Shown: piece by piece, positions 968 through 6,938 of the stretch | Numbering within the stretch: position 1 is the first letter of the stretch | How the letters are laid out: each line of letters opens with the position of its first letter | Source of the DNA: Planctomycetota bacterium | Lineage (GTDB): Bacteria > Planctomycetota > MHYJ01 > WSZJ01 | DNA length: 38,009 nt | Direction: 5' to 3' | Assembly: GCA_021413805.1 (NCBI GenBank) | Contig: JAIOPR010000329.1 | Location: 1 to 38,009 of the forward strand | The notes under the pieces: model-generated | Told to the model about the DNA's origin: nothing | Database searches by the model: none | The model's input: the letters and a program-made list of their open reading frames with translations, nothing else | Made by a program: the position numbers and the translations under genes

Positions 968-1321
968 ATGGCTCGAAGACCCACCACGTTCGATCCCTTC
1001 AATGCCGTCGCCGAACCGAGGCGGCGCAAGATCCTCAACCTGCTCATGCGGGGCGAGCGGTCGGTGAACGGCGTCGCGCGGATGCTGCACTTCAAGCAGC
1101 CGCAGGTCTCCAAGCACCTTCGCGTCCTGAAGCAGGTCGGGCTGGTGCGGGTGCGGGGGGCGGGGAAGCAGCGGATGTACCGGCTGAACGGGAAAGGGTT
1201 GAAGCCGATGCACGACTGGGTCAGCTCGTTCGAACGCTTCTGGAACGAGAGCTTCGACAGGCTGGCGGACTACTTGAAGGAACTTCAGAGCGAGGAGAAG
1301 CCGCATGGGCCGAAAGAGTGA
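968..1321 (+). CDS. ArsR-family (SdpR-like) winged-helix repressor
   Basis: This is a 117-residue DNA-binding protein. The helix-turn-helix is at about residues 30-60 (VNGVARMLHFKQPQVSKHLRVLKQVGLV), followed by a beta-hairpin wing (VRGAGKQRMYRL) and a C-terminal dimerisation helix. The ELCVC metal-site signature is absent and there is no cysteine at all, so it should sense something other than arsenic, like the SdpR-type repressors that accompany SRPBCC genes. It opens a nine-gene operon, overlaps the next gene by 17 nt, and sits on a promoter with CATAT repeats. The N-terminal FDPFNAVAEPRRRKIL segment is typical of this subgroup. Confidence 0.9.
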   Translation: MARRPTTFDPFNAVAEPRRRKILNLLMRGERSVNGVARMLHFKQPQVSKHLRVLKQVGLVRVRGAGKQRMYRLNGKGLKPMHDWVSSFERFWNESFDRLADYLKELQSEEKPHGPKE

Positions 1322-2270
1322 CGCCGGGGCGGGGACGGCGGACCGGGAGATTGTGATCACGCGGGTTTTCGAAGCGCCGCGGGAAATGGTTTTCAGCGCG
1401 TGGACGGACCCGAAGCACATCGTGCGGTGGTGGGGCCCGCGCGGGTTTTCGAATACTTCGAAGGAGATCGAGATCCGGCCGGGCGGCAAATGGGTCTTCA
1501 CCATGCACGGCCCCGACGGGCGCGACTACCCGAACGTCGTCACCTTCCTTGAGATCGCGGCGCCCGAACGCATCGTCTACGCGCACGGCGACCCGAAAGA
1601 CGCCGACAAGTTCGGGACGACGGTGACGTTCGAGGCCCAGGGCGCGAAGACGAAAGTCACCATGCGCGCGCAATTCCCCAGCGCCGCGGCCCGCGAGCAG
1701 GTCATTCGCGATTTCAAGGCCGACGAGGGCGGGAAGCAGCACATCGAGCGCTGCGCGGAGCACGTGGAACGGATGAAATCCGCGAAGGGGCCGTTCGTGA
1801 TCACCCGGGTTTTCAACGCGCCGAGGGAGAAAGTGTTCCGCGCGTGGACCGAGGCGTCGGAGCTTCAGAAATGGTTCGGGCCGAAGGGGTTCACGATGCC
1901 GGTCTGCAAACTCGACCTGCGCCCCGGCGGGGTGATGCACTTCTGCCTGCGCGGCCCGGACGGGAGCGACATGTGGGGGAAGTGGATCTGGAAGGAGATC
2001 GTGGCGCCGCGGAAGCTGGTGACGCTCACGGGTTTTTCCGACCCGGCCGGCGGCTGGACGCGGCACCCGATGGCGCCCGTCTGGCCGCTCGAGACGCTCT
2101 CGACGACGACGTTCGAGGACGAAGGCGGCAAGACCCGGATGACGCTCGAGAGTACGCCGTACGAAGCGAGCGCGGAGGAGCGGGCGATTTTCGACACGAT
2201 GCACGATTCCATGAAGGGCGGCTGGACGGGAACGATGGAGCAGCTCGAGGCGTACCTCGCCGGGAATTAG
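1305..2270 (+). CDS. Double SRPBCC (AHSA1/START-like) protein
   Basis: This 321-residue protein contains two complete SRPBCC domains, at about 15-155 and 163-320. Each begins with ITRVF.APRE.VF.AWT and has the WWGP.GF or WFGP.GF turn, a RPGG strand and an HGPDG or RGPDG hairpin. Single AHSA1-like proteins are about 150 residues, so this is an in-frame tandem fusion. The family forms a hydrophobic ligand-binding cavity; the ligand is not predictable. The ATG at 1305 has GAGGAG upstream and overlaps the repressor gene by 17 nt, suggesting translational coupling. A second double protein lies at 2719. Confidence 0.9.
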   Translation: MGRKSDAGAGTADREIVITRVFEAPREMVFSAWTDPKHIVRWWGPRGFSNTSKEIEIRPGGKWVFTMHGPDGRDYPNVVTFLEIAAPERIVYAHGDPKDADKFGTTVTFEAQGAKTKVTMRAQFPSAAAREQVIRDFKADEGGKQHIERCAEHVERMKSAKGPFVITRVFNAPREKVFRAWTEASELQKWFGPKGFTMPVCKLDLRPGGVMHFCLRGPDGSDMWGKWIWKEIVAPRKLVTLTGFSDPAGGWTRHPMAPVWPLETLSTTTFEDEGGKTRMTLESTPYEASAEERAIFDTMHDSMKGGWTGTMEQLEAYLAGN

Positions 2271-2296
2271 AACTCTTCAACCATCACGGAGGCCCG

Positions 2297-2722
2297 ATGC
2301 CCGAAGGAAAGTCGTTCACGCGGTTTTTCCCGATCATCGCGAGGGTCCTCATGGGGCTCCTCTTCACGATGACCGGCCTCAACGGTTTCCTGAACTTCCT
2401 GCCGCAGCCAAAGGAGGCGATGCCGGAGTTCGCGGTGGCGCTTGCGAAGACCGGGTACATGTTCCCGATGATCATGGGGACGCAACTCCTGTGCGGGCTC
2501 CTGTTCCTGTCGGGGCGCTTCGTCCCGCTGGCACTGGCGCTTCTTGCCCCGGTCGTCGTGAACATTGTCGCGTTTCACCTTTTCCTGGCGCAGAACGGCA
2601 TCGCGATGGCGATGGTCGTGCTGCTCCTGGAGCTGTACCTCGCGGGGGCCTACCGCGGGGCGTTCAAACCGATGTTGGCCATGAACGCGGCCCCCGGCAC
2701 CAACTCAGGAGGATCCCGATGA
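2297..2722 (+). CDS. DoxX-family membrane protein
   Basis: This 141-residue protein has four hydrophobic segments, starting with FFPIIARVLMGLLFTMTGLNG and ending with MVVLLLELYLAGAY. This is the four-helix layout of DoxX/DoxD-like proteins, which act in the cytoplasmic membrane and are often linked to quinone or thiol redox chemistry. It starts at ATG 2297 after an ACGGAGG ribosome site, and its stop overlaps the next start as ATGA (2719-2722). The position between two double SRPBCC genes suggests a shared pathway, but no substrate can be named. Confidence 0.8.
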   Translation: MPEGKSFTRFFPIIARVLMGLLFTMTGLNGFLNFLPQPKEAMPEFAVALAKTGYMFPMIMGTQLLCGLLFLSGRFVPLALALLAPVVVNIVAFHLFLAQNGIAMAMVVLLLELYLAGAYRGAFKPMLAMNAAPGTNSGGSR

Positions 2723-3618
2723 GCGCGAAATCCGCAGCTCTTCCGAAAGTCGTCTTCACCCGTCTCTTTGACGCGCCGCGCGCCACGGTCTGGCGCGCGT
2801 GGACCGACGCGAAGCACCTCGCTAAATGGTGGGGGCCGATCGGGTGGACGGCGCCGGTTTGCCGGCTCGACGCGCGGGTCGGCGGCCGGATCCATGTCGT
2901 CATGCGCGGCCCGGACGGGGAAGAGCACCCGATGGAAGGCACGGTCACGGTCCTGGACGCGCCGCGCCGATTCGCTTTCGTCAGCAGCGTCCCGGACAAG
3001 GCCGGAGCGACGATGTTCGAGGTGGAGAACAGCGTTCTGTTCGCAGCGCGACGGAGGAAGACTTTGGTCACGCTGACCGCCCGCGTCACCAGGATCACGC
3101 CCGTCGCGGCGCCTTACATCGCCGGGATGGAAGCCGGCTGGTGCCAGTCGCTCGAGAAACTCGACTCGACGCTTTCCGGCTCGGCGAAGCGCGAGATCGT
3201 CAGCGTCCGCTGCCTCGAAGCCTCGCCGGCGCAGGTGTACCGCGCCTGGACCACTTCGAAAATCATCACCCGCTGGTGGGGGCCGAAGGGTTTCACGAAC
3301 ACCATCTCCCGGTTCGAGCCGCGTGCCGGCGGCCGTTGGAACCTCGTCATGCACGGCCCCGACGGCAAGGACTTCCCCAACGCCTGGCGTTTCCTCGAAC
3401 TCGAGCGCCCGCGCCGCATCGTCCTTGAGCATCCGTCGAAGGGGCACCACTTCCGGATCCTCGCGACCTTCTCCGGCATGGGCCCGCGCACCATCCTGAT
3501 CTTCCGCCAGGTTTTCGGCGAGGGCACGGCGATGAACCCGAAATTCCGGGCATTCCTTCAACAGGCAAACGACCAGATGTTGGACCGGATGGAGACGGAA
3601 CTCGCCCGGATTTTGTAA
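2719..3618 (+). CDS. Second double SRPBCC (AHSA1-like) protein
   Basis: This 299-residue protein has two SRPBCC domains, at about 8-150 and 155-298. Landmarks are FTRLFDAPRATVWRAWT and WWGPIGW in the first and VYRAWTTSKIITRWWGPKGF and MHGPDGKDFPNAW in the second. The second domain resembles the first domain of the protein at 1305 (WWGP.GF.NT, MHGPDG.D.PN), so the pair probably arose by duplication. The AGGAGG at 2707-2712 supports the ATG at 2719, which overlaps the DoxX stop by 4 nt. The two domains are too divergent from each other to be a recent internal repeat. Confidence 0.9.
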   Translation: MSAKSAALPKVVFTRLFDAPRATVWRAWTDAKHLAKWWGPIGWTAPVCRLDARVGGRIHVVMRGPDGEEHPMEGTVTVLDAPRRFAFVSSVPDKAGATMFEVENSVLFAARRRKTLVTLTARVTRITPVAAPYIAGMEAGWCQSLEKLDSTLSGSAKREIVSVRCLEASPAQVYRAWTTSKIITRWWGPKGFTNTISRFEPRAGGRWNLVMHGPDGKDFPNAWRFLELERPRRIVLEHPSKGHHFRILATFSGMGPRTILIFRQVFGEGTAMNPKFRAFLQQANDQMLDRMETELARIL

Positions 3619-3657
3619 GATTCGTTCCTACAGCCGGACCTTTAGGAAGACACGCCC

Positions 3658-4071
3658 ATGCTCTCCCCGCTGACCGACCGGGTTTACGCCGTTGTCCGGA
3701 TCGTGGTTGGGCTGATGTTCAGCTTTCACGGGATGCAGAAGCTCTTCGGCCTCCTCTCCGACCACCCGAAACCCGCCGTCGGCTCGCAGGTCTGGGTCGG
3801 CGGCGTCATCGAACTCGCCGCGGGGCTCCTGATCGCCGCCGGATTTTTCAGCCGGTGCGCGGCGTTCGTCGCCAGCGGCACGATGGCCGTCGCCTACTGG
3901 CAGTTCCATGTCGGCGGCAGCAAACTCGAGGGCATCAGCAAGTTCCTCCCCGGCACCAACGGAGGCGAACTCGCCGTCGTTTACTGCTTCCTCTTCCTTT
4001 TCATCGCCTGCAAGGGCTCCGGCCCGATGAGCCTCGATGCCATGCGCGAGAAGAAATCTAACTCCAAGTAA
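3658..4071 (+). CDS. DoxX-family membrane protein
   Basis: This 137-residue protein has four predicted membrane helices. It has the DoxX hallmarks R(I/V)VVGLMFSFHGMQKLFG near residue 15-30, a GG.IEL..GLLI..G segment, and a central VAYWQFHVGG loop. It is closer to classical DoxX than the product at 2297. It starts at ATG 3658 with AGGAAG upstream, 39 nt after the SRPBCC gene and 14 nt before the propeller gene, so it is most likely co-transcribed. Its role is presumably membrane redox or small-molecule handling; not determinable here. Confidence 0.88.
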   Translation: MLSPLTDRVYAVVRIVVGLMFSFHGMQKLFGLLSDHPKPAVGSQVWVGGVIELAAGLLIAAGFFSRCAAFVASGTMAVAYWQFHVGGSKLEGISKFLPGTNGGELAVVYCFLFLFIACKGSGPMSLDAMREKKSNSK

Positions 4072-4085
4072 CCAGGGGGACCTCC

Positions 4086-5210
4086 ATGGCGGATCGCGTC
4101 GTCGTCTGCGTCGGCACCAAGCGCGGCCTGTTCGTGTTCGAGTCGTCTGCGAAGCGCAAAGACTGGAAACTGCGAGGGCCGTTCCTCGAAGGATGGCACA
4201 TCTACCACGCGACCGTGGACACGCGGAGCACGCCGAGAATCCATGCGGCCGCGGTGAGCGACGTGTTCGGCTCGACGACGTTTGCCGGCAACCTCTCCGA
4301 CGCGAAATTCACCGGCGCGAAGAAGCCGCCAGTCCCGCCCAAGCCGCTTCCGCAGCACGAGAAGTTCTACAAGGAGTGGGGGATCTCAAAGGCGCAGCGG
4401 GTGTGGCACGTCGAGCCGGGGCGGAAGGGCGAGAAGGGCGTGCTGTACGCGGGGACGGCGCCGGCGGGGCTTTTCCGCACGGAGGACGACGGGAAAACCT
4501 GGGAGCCGGTGAACAGCCTGAACAACCACCCGACGCGGAAGAAATGGATGCCGGGCGCGGGCGGGATGTCGGCGCACTCGATCCAGCTCGACCCGGCGGA
4601 CACGAAACGCATGTACGTGGCGATCTCGGCGTGCGGGGCGTGGCGGACGGACGACGGCTGCAAGTCGTGGACGCCGATCAACAAGTCGGTGGCGAAATAC
4701 CCCGGCGCGCCGAAGGACGGCGAGGTCGGGAGCTGCGTGCACAAGCTGCTCCTGCACCCCGCGGTGCCGGGGCGCCTCTACCAGCAGAACCACGTCGGCG
4801 TCTACCGCTCTGACGACTACGGCGCGACCTGGAACGCGATCCACATGGGCCTCCCCAGCGAATTCGGCTTCGGCCTCGCCCTCGACGCGAACAACCCCGA
4901 CACCTGTTTCACCGTCCCGCTCAAGACCGGCACCAACTACCAGTTCCGCGCGACCAACGGCCCGTTCCGCGTCTACCGCTGGAACGGCCCGGGGAAAGGC
5001 TGGACGGCGCAATCGAAGGGCCTTCCCGCGGACGGCGCGTACCTCAGCGTCCTGCGCGAAGGAATGTCCGCCGACACCCTCAACCCGTGTGGCGTCTACG
5101 TCGGCACCGGCACCGGGCACGTGTTCCACAGCGCCGACGCCGGCCGCTCGTGGAAGTCGCTCGCCGAGTTCCTCCCGCCGGTGCTCTCCGTCAGCGCAGC
5201 CGTCGTGTAA
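4086..5210 (+). CDS. Asp-box (BNR/sortilin-like) beta-propeller protein
   Basis: This is a 374-residue protein with at least four Asp-box turns: RTEDDGKTW (131-139), RTDDGCKSW (187-195), RSDDYGATW (241-249) and HSADAGRSW near the C-terminus. They mark successive blades of a six- or seven-bladed propeller like those in sialidases and VPS10 proteins. No signal peptide is visible, and the sialidase arginine triad and RIP motif are not evident, so a glycosidase activity should not be assumed. The start at ATG 4086 follows AGGGGGA. Its stop is 2 nt before a MoaD/ThiS-like gene, implying a tightly coupled pair. A propeller used as a binding scaffold is my best guess. Confidence 0.8.
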   Translation: MADRVVVCVGTKRGLFVFESSAKRKDWKLRGPFLEGWHIYHATVDTRSTPRIHAAAVSDVFGSTTFAGNLSDAKFTGAKKPPVPPKPLPQHEKFYKEWGISKAQRVWHVEPGRKGEKGVLYAGTAPAGLFRTEDDGKTWEPVNSLNNHPTRKKWMPGAGGMSAHSIQLDPADTKRMYVAISACGAWRTDDGCKSWTPINKSVAKYPGAPKDGEVGSCVHKLLLHPAVPGRLYQQNHVGVYRSDDYGATWNAIHMGLPSEFGFGLALDANNPDTCFTVPLKTGTNYQFRATNGPFRVYRWNGPGKGWTAQSKGLPADGAYLSVLREGMSADTLNPCGVYVGTGTGHVFHSADAGRSWKSLAEFLPPVLSVSAAVV

Positions 5211-5212
5211 CG

Positions 5213-5506
5213 GTGGCCGGCCCGGTCGCCGTGGACGTCGTGATCCCTTCCATGCTCCACGCTTCCGTGGGCGCGAAGAAACTCCGCGTCGAGGCGACAA
5301 CGCTCGCAGAAGCAATCGAAGCGGCGTTCCTCGCCAGGCCGGTCCTCCGCCATCACCTCTGCGAGGACACGGGAAAGCTCCGGCCGCACGTGCTGTGCTT
5401 CCTCAACGACACGAACACGCGGGACATGAAGACGCTTGCGGTGGCGCTCAAGGACGGCGACGAGATCGTGTTCGTGCCGGCGATTTCGGGCGGTGCCGTT
5501 CACTGA
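5213..5506 (+). CDS. MoaD/ThiS-family ubiquitin-fold sulfur-carrier-like protein
   Basis: This 97-residue beta-grasp protein has VDVVIPSML at the first strand, LRPHVLCFLNDTN in the middle and LKDGDEIVFVPAISGG at the end, all typical of MoaD/ThiS carriers. Family members carry sulfur as a thiocarboxylate on a C-terminal Gly-Gly, activated by an E1-like enzyme. Here the Gly-Gly is followed by Ala-Val-His, so a trimming step would be needed before activation. The GTG at 5213, 2 nt after the propeller stop, is the most upstream sensible start; GTG 5231 is an alternative. No E1-like adenylase or JAMM protease is encoded in the window. Confidence 0.8.
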   Translation: MAGPVAVDVVIPSMLHASVGAKKLRVEATTLAEAIEAAFLARPVLRHHLCEDTGKLRPHVLCFLNDTNTRDMKTLAVALKDGDEIVFVPAISGGAVH

Positions 5507-6030: not shown

Positions 6031-6315
6031 ATGTGCCGCAACATCCGCACCTTGTTCAACTTCGCCCCACCCGCCACCGACGACGAAATCCGCGCCGCGT
6101 CGCTCCAGTTTGTGCGCAAGATCAGCGGATTCAACGCGCCGTCGAAGGCGAACGAGGCCGCGTTCAACCGCTCCGTGGAGGAAGTCGCCCACATCGCCCG
6201 CCACCTCGTCGATGCGCTCGTGACTGAGGCCCCGGCGCGCGACCGGGCTGTGGAAGCGGCGAAGGCGAAGGCCCGGTCGGCGGAGAGGTTCGGGCGGACA
6301 GATTCAGGGCTTTGA
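6031..6315 (+). CDS. DUF2277 family protein
   Basis: This 94-residue protein begins MCRNIRTLFNF, the diagnostic N-terminal motif of DUF2277 (PF10041). It continues with PPATDDEIRAASLQFVRKISGF, also standard, and ends with a basic helix. The function of the family is not known; members are small cytosolic proteins. It is the last gene of the arsR-led operon. Its stop overlaps the stop of the convergent vapC gene by 12 nt, and no terminator hairpin fits in between. Confidence 0.9.
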   Translation: MCRNIRTLFNFAPPATDDEIRAASLQFVRKISGFNAPSKANEAAFNRSVEEVAHIARHLVDALVTEAPARDRAVEAAKAKARSAERFGRTDSGL

Positions 6316-6735
6316 CCCGGCGGCCGGGGAATAGAGTTCCACGGACAAAAGGTCCCGGTAACGCTCGAAATCGCGGTCGAGCGTGAAAACCTGAATCTTC
6401 CTGTTGAGCGCGACGGCGCAGATGAGGCAGTCCGTCGAGGAACTCGCTGCGCCGCGGGCGGCCAATCGATTGAAACAGCGCGCGGCTTCCTCGTAGTCGG
6501 CCGCATCGAGCGGTTCGTCGGCGAACGCCGAAAGCTGTTCCCGGATTCGTTCGAATCCGGGGCTGTCGCTGATTCCTGAGAGAATTTCCTGCCGCACCGG
6601 GCCGAGAAAGATGACGGCGCGCGCATGGATCAGGTCCTGCAGGGCGAGGACCAGGATCCTGTCGCGCGGCGCGAGGTCGCCACGCCGGCGCCTGAGAGCC
6701 AGCGACCAGATGGGCGTATCGACGAGGACCTTCAA
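6304..6735 (-). CDS. vapC: VapC-type PIN-domain ribonuclease toxin
   Basis: This 143-residue PIN-domain protein shows the acidic metal-site residues D6 (LVDTPIW), E50 (RQEIL), D102 (STDCLICAVAL) and D120 (FTLDRDF). Such toxins cleave RNA, often tRNA or rRNA, using Mg2+. Its start overlaps the antitoxin stop by 4 nt (6732-6735), the usual toxin-antitoxin coupling. All catalytic residues are present, so the toxin looks intact. It ends inside the convergent DUF2277 gene. Confidence 0.93.
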   Translation of the reverse strand: MKVLVDTPIWSLALRRRRGDLAPRDRILVLALQDLIHARAVIFLGPVRQEILSGISDSPGFERIREQLSAFADEPLDAADYEEAARCFNRLAARGAASSSTDCLICAVALNRKIQVFTLDRDFERYRDLLSVELYSPAAGSKP

Positions 6736-6938
6736 TGCCTGGCCCGCAGTCGCGCCGCCTTGTAGTCAAACTTCGGGTTGAAATCGACCGTCCCGAACGA
6801 TTCCAGGATGCGCAACTGTCCGAGATGCCGGACGTAGGTCTCGAGCGCGGCGGTCACGGCGTCCTTCTTCGATCGATGATGCCCGAGCCGTTTGGCCTTC
6901 GTGATCAGGCGGTCGTCGAGGTCGAGGTTGGTGGCCAT
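6732..6938 (-). CDS. vapB: VapB-type antitoxin (DUF2191, ribbon-helix-helix)
   Basis: This 68-residue protein starts MATNLDLDDRLITKAKRLG, the DUF2191/VapB signature. It has a ribbon-helix-helix DNA-binding N-terminus and a C-terminal toxin-binding tail (GTVDFNPKFDYKAARLR). It neutralises VapC and with it represses their shared promoter. An inverted repeat at 6951-6966 and a good promoter at 6973-7001 lie just upstream. It precedes vapC with ATGA-type overlap. Confidence 0.92.
   Translation of the reverse strand: MATNLDLDDRLITKAKRLGHHRSKKDAVTAALETYVRHLGQLRILESFGTVDFNPKFDYKAARLRARH

Follow-up and report, generated by a model that had tools for sequence, protein, structure and literature searches.

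What does a beta-propeller protein do when its gene is coupled to that of a MoaD/ThiS-like carrier whose Gly-Gly end is blocked? This question is raised by two genes (Table 1) of the window, the whole 38,009-nucleotide stretch of Planctomycetota DNA analyzed here. The preliminary description placed the genes 2 nt apart and read the carrier end as ISGG-AVH instead of Gly-Gly, and both readings were borne out. The gap is 2 nt with GTG 5213 as the carrier start, a value that presumes this codon, as further in-frame GTGs occur at 5231 and 5240, and the translated C-terminus is PAISGG-AVH.

Table 1. Coordinates of the propeller-carrier pair in the window
Feature	Position	Strand	Remark
Asp-box (BNR) beta-propeller, 374 aa	4086..5210	+	3b7f family; Cys member of a Cys/Sec/Asp family
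Codon TGC, Cys217 (GSC-V-H219)	4734..4736	+	TGA (Sec), Cys, or Asp codon in homologues
Counterpart of SECIS-like hairpin, CCCCGCGGTGCCGGGG	4757..4772	+	fold disrupted in the window Cys gene; CCCGGC-GGC-GCCGGG at this place in TGA relatives
Propeller stop codon TAA	5208-5210	+	
ThiS/MoaD/SAMP1-like Gly-Gly carrier, 97 aa	5213..5506	+	start GTG 5213, stop TGA 5504-5506
Gly-Gly codons of the carrier (GGC GGT)	5489..5494	+	
Post-Gly-Gly tail Ala-Val-His of the carrier	5495..5503	+	variable even within the genus

The propeller and carrier as a conserved pair

Profile searches revealed in the window carrier the beta-grasp domain of the ThiS/MoaD/SAMP1/CysO carriers, with matches to PF02597 ThiS (E 2e-8), Urm1 (2e-5), and NCBIfam SAMP1 (E 6e-12, under the model's cut-off); its closest solved structures are CysO-type carriers and SAMP1. 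The exposed C-terminal Gly-Gly of such carriers is absent from the protein as encoded and would appear only once it is trimmed. The propeller matched Sortilin/BNR profiles, of which only Sortilin-Vps10 passes its Pfam cut-off (34.4 vs 33 bits), while BNR falls under its cut-off and NF045728 scores 51 of 175 bits. No glycosidase family of Pfam or NCBIfam matched the propeller at a curated cut-off; the name "glycosyl hydrolase" is based on the repeats alone.

Comparison with solved structures placed the window protein over its full length in the family of 3b7f (Reut_B4987, a BNR-repeat protein of Ralstonia eutropha; E 2.6e-63). An AlphaFold2 model of the propeller (pLDDT 93.9) gave 3b7f as the clear top Foldseek match (TM 0.89). 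The 3b7f protein, for which no assigned function was found, has Asp at the position of Cys217 of the window protein. A homologue in Cupriavidus metallidurans adjoins a Gly-Gly carrier, as in the window.

The search for propeller homologues covered 59 relatives and was then widened to 343 genomes of the phylum. The surroundings of 126 propeller loci from about 100 genomes were read, and at 115 of these loci a carrier gene lay adjacent and on the same strand, in both gene orders. Further pairs were present in Cupriavidus and Nonomuraea records, so that the pair reaches past this phylum. The proposed coupling of propeller and carrier is thus strongly supported, and the two genes almost certainly form a conserved pair. 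Among the loci read, the ArsR/AHSA1/DoxX/VOC neighbours recurred around G001, where the set is complete, and around G002, where part of it is present, but nowhere else, indicating that the pair is the unit; conserved neighbours were accordingly rejected as a clue to function. A search of the open-licence literature found no description of a propeller/MoaD pair or of a Sec propeller, and this widespread two-gene pair is apparently undescribed so far.

The carrier tail and the enzymes that could act on it

The preliminary description pointed to the blocked Gly-Gly end and suggested a check of tail conservation in homologous pairs. By that check the blocked end is not a property of the system but a lineage-specific, non-conserved extension. 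Nearly all homologous carriers end exactly at Gly-Gly, the exceptions falling in three lineages, one of them the window's genus, and in seven genomes altogether (five of the genus, G023, and G025). Within the genus the five tails are AVH, LPTGPA, ATAGE, RG, and, in G002, an AHSA1 domain read in frame; paralogous carriers of the genus end in ASST or continue into a fused LMW-phosphatase domain. In the window's own genome, the carrier of a second, paralogous pair ends at plain Gly-Gly. Two G023 tails arise by overlap with the start of the next gene, and one of the two G025 carriers reads on past Gly-Gly into a fused DinB. Because most carriers stop at Gly-Gly and the tails are unrelated, the tail carries no conserved signal, and we rejected it as a conserved functional element. 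With metagenome-assembled genomes, a misassembly or a false start or stop might be suspected behind the tail, but this is hardly credible, given that all five genus genomes independently read past Gly-Gly with differing tails.

In-frame fusions past Gly-Gly were observed as carrier-AHSA1 (L018/L085, G002) and carrier-DinB_2 (L025/L096, G025), both in JAMM-positive genomes. In two paralogous pairs, L079 (G004) and L081 (G002), the carrier is fused in the same manner to a low-molecular-weight phosphatase/arsenate-reductase-type domain, and these two fusions offer natural substrates for testing release by JAMM. Carriers of the opposite kind were also encountered: that of L138 has no recognisable Gly-Gly, whereas L104, L120, and L135 were rejected as Gly-Gly-less candidates, being profile misplacements or the result of a contig end.

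QbsE/QbsD and HcyS-type carriers have residues after Gly-Gly. Like them, the window carrier has post-Gly-Gly residues and its genome encodes a JAMM with an intact motif; in contrast to them, the JAMM lies outside the operon, on another contig, and the tail is unrelated among the tailed carriers and missing in most homologues. As previously noted, neither a protease nor an E1-like enzyme is nearby, and a profile search of the window contig gave no JAMM or ThiF match. The search of the whole genome that had been suggested located both activities elsewhere. One strong JAMM of the Mec+ type, with the intact motif HSHPDHPARPSEGD (84 bits), is encoded on contig C166, and two ThiF/MoeB (E1) genes lie on C218 and C69, one of them a rhodanese-MoeB fusion. 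Both missing enzymes therefore exist in trans.

The JAMM gene sits in a cassette of Rrf2, CysM-like, JAMM, and CysO-like genes, matching the CysO-CysM-Mec+ pathway of Mycobacterium tuberculosis. The cassette CysO-like protein resembles M. tuberculosis CysO (E 4e-23), to which the window carrier is more weakly related. In the genus, the AIAGG of the cassette protein is followed by K, AR, TEWGVLSIE, or no further residue. The window carrier differs from the components of that pathway in that it adjoins a propeller, not CysM or JAMM. Trimming of the window carrier by this JAMM is opposed by the fact that the protease already has a CysO partner of its own.

Among the pair-bearing genomes, tails occurred in 7 of the 26 with a strong JAMM and in none of the 73 others (Fisher 4e-5), a strong JAMM being one with E 1e-19 or better, a threshold chosen after the data were seen. 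Since the association comprises three independent lineages only and the threshold is post hoc, we take it as supportive and no further. Three genomes whose orthologous carriers end at Gly-Gly (G011, G012, and G014) gave no JAMM match. The earlier proposal that a tailed carrier needs a JAMM-type protease thus stands as plausible in that a JAMM is available in trans and tails appear only in strong-JAMM genomes, but it fails to extend to a conserved tail. On balance we lean towards the idea that a resident JAMM licenses the carrier tail. The release of fused ThiS/MoaD domains by JAB proteases was predicted in 2006 by Iyer and colleagues (PMC1779556), and the distribution of tails and JAMM represents a natural experiment for that prediction.

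The rhodanese-MoeB of the window genome contains a TGA at the conserved crossover-loop Cys (APG-U-NEAGVLGVLPG), accompanied by a hairpin of -33 kcal/mol. Uba4 uses the catalytic Cys of this loop to form a thioester with Urm1, and MoeB conserves the residue (PMC7911844). Sec-containing MoeB is a known selenoprotein family (PMC1088965, PMC13188914), and this E1 of the window genome is predicted to be a selenoprotein.

These enzymes could also be read in terms of ubiquitin-like conjugation, with the propeller as target or E3-like platform for the carrier and JAMM as deconjugase. The similarity of the carrier to SAMP1 and the presence of JAMM and E1 in the genome fit such a role, yet the JAMM belongs to a cysteine-synthesis cassette, a strong JAMM is missing from many pair-bearing genomes, and the propeller has a catalytic-looking Cys/Sec/Asp site, making this explanation very unlikely. 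A less remote alternative, though one we also consider improbable, is that the carrier regulates the propeller or forms a stable subunit of it without a catalytic role, with Gly-Gly used for docking and a harmless tail that is never removed. The pair persists while other neighbours change, the tails are short and unrelated, and in the Nonomuraea gerenzanensis record (L047, 4081-4392) the carrier beside a Cys-type propeller ends in VLPALA, without any Gly-Gly, all of which would suit a subunit. Against it, nearly all members still have Gly-Gly as their last two residues, as expected for adenylation, and tails and fusions are confined to JAMM genomes.

Probable selenocysteine at residue 217 in relatives of the propeller

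A genome search flagged a single in-frame TGA inside many propeller homologues. Across the alignment it falls at residue 217. There, 13 homologues, belonging to 11 genomes, have TGA (Sec), 39 rows have Cys, and 68 have Asp; the residue is followed by x-His in a nearly invariant motif, and homology runs on for ~150 residues past the TGA. The window propeller has TGC in place of any in-frame TGA and represents a Cys member.

In 12 of the 13 Sec homologues, a hairpin (CCCGGC-GGC-GCCGGG) begins 20 nt downstream of the TGA. Among the 11 orthologues, the Pro and Ala codons of this hairpin show no synonymous change, against a mean codon agreement of 0.66 elsewhere, and the joint probability of the four invariant codons is 10^-9.6 when computed from each gene's own codon usage with relatedness ignored. 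The fold is lost in Cys genes of the same genus. SelB scored above cut-off in all Sec-propeller genomes except G003, where the match is partial, and tRNA-Sec was above the gathering score in all of them, with G014 marginal. Relatives of the window propeller accordingly display a TGA aligned to Cys, a SECIS-like hairpin, and SelB with tRNA-Sec, and very probably contain Sec at residue 217. To fit the tree, Sec must have been gained or lost about six times, with at least three of these events forced by supported branches; repeated exchange of Cys and Sec is usual for selenoproteins.

MoeB is among the 119 prokaryotic selenoprotein families inventoried in 2026, but no propeller, sialidase, or BNR protein is, and the NCBIfam selenoprotein models gave no match to the propeller. 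Sec-MoeB is thus already known, and the Sec propeller is outside that list. The latter adds a fold absent from the known prokaryotic selenoproteins searched, in a protein annotated only as "sialidase family". A propeller that exchanges Cys for Sec and is tied to a sulfur carrier is a stronger finding than the tail, which is conserved least of all in the pair.

A tRNA-Sec-like body was detected on contig C10 of G000 (4768-4858; L224 369-459, minus strand) with 53 bits to RF01852 but a Cys anticodon, GCA, like the selC* tRNA-Cys known in other phyla. A UCA tRNA-Sec was not found in the assembly of the window genome (82% complete) and is present in G001. We also compared propeller residue 217 (Asp versus Cys/Sec) with the carrier residue before SGG (Leu versus Val/Ile). 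The match was near-perfect, and co-evolution was nevertheless rejected, because the tree shows a single split and the match is no independent evidence. A small clade of propellers (L161, L172, and L178) has Thr at 217, with the motif T-P-Q replacing C/D-x-H, and no adjacent carrier was found for these, which suggests a joint loss of motif and carrier.

A possible role of the propeller in sulfur transfer

Residues T11, H164, S181, H219, Q234, H236, and R324 of the propeller are invariant in the alignment. They occupy corresponding strand ends in several blades, so that together with residue 217 they probably line one face of the propeller channel. Where selenocysteine occurs, the site is usually catalytic or binds a metal, and its repeated appearance at 217 therefore suggests an unrecognised reactive centre. 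The invariant cluster around the Cys/Sec/Asp position points to an enzyme. As to the roles first suggested for the propeller, the cluster indicates that it is probably not merely a target or a processing platform.

In the scheme we propose, the carrier would be a beta-grasp protein of the CysO/SAMP1 type that works through a Gly-Gly end. Its reading frame would have drifted past Gly-Gly in the window lineage, which would be tolerated because a Mec+-type JAMM in trans could trim the product. From the families involved, the JAMM of the CysM/CysO cassette on contig C166 would remove the AVH tail, and the rhodanese-MoeB E1 would adenylate and thiocarboxylate the trimmed carrier, as expected from family biochemistry. 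The thiocarboxylated carrier would then dock on the propeller, an enzyme using the thiocarboxylate at a site that, by conservation, may comprise residue 217 with H164, H219, H236, Q234, S181, and R324. As a whole, this scheme of a conserved sulfur-carrier module with JAMM trimming, E1 charging, and use at 217 is close to an even call, slightly on the doubtful side; the assignment of the propeller as a thiocarboxylate-using enzyme is tentative.

Several observations weigh against the scheme. Besides the JAMM's own CysO partner and the UCA tRNA-Sec missing from the window assembly, one is the Gly-Gly-less carrier beside the Cys-type propeller of L047. Another is Asp217 in most of the family, which misfits a sulfur-accepting nucleophile in all members; its presence in sister clades allows a metal-ligand role as well and constitutes the main doubt on the propeller step. 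Residue 217 and the invariant histidines might accordingly bind a metal in the channel, with the carrier supplying sulfur to the centre or to a substrate. Asp, Cys, and Sec, all possible ligands, swap at this one position beside invariant H164, H219, and H236, and the position pattern appears to put these residues on one propeller face. We nonetheless regard a metal site as unlikely.

A bolder form of the sulfur-transfer scheme is a selenium-assisted relay, in which a Sec-E1 would charge the carrier, the Sec/Cys propeller would use the thiocarboxylate, and JAMM would release tails and fused domains in a polyprotein-like manner. It is speculative and rather doubtful at present; if true, the Sec/Cys beta-propeller would be a new enzyme class encoded beside its carrier. 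Because the propeller is so closely linked to a ubiquitin-like sulfur carrier, an unassigned branch of the carrier family becomes testable.

The pair is flanked in the window by other gene groups. Positions 968-4071 hold an ArsR-like gene followed by alternating AHSA1-like and DoxX-like genes, the AHSA1-like proteins each looking like two tandem domains. On the minus strand at 6304-6938 is a pair resembling a PIN-domain toxin and a VapB-like antitoxin, as judged by eye from the translations.
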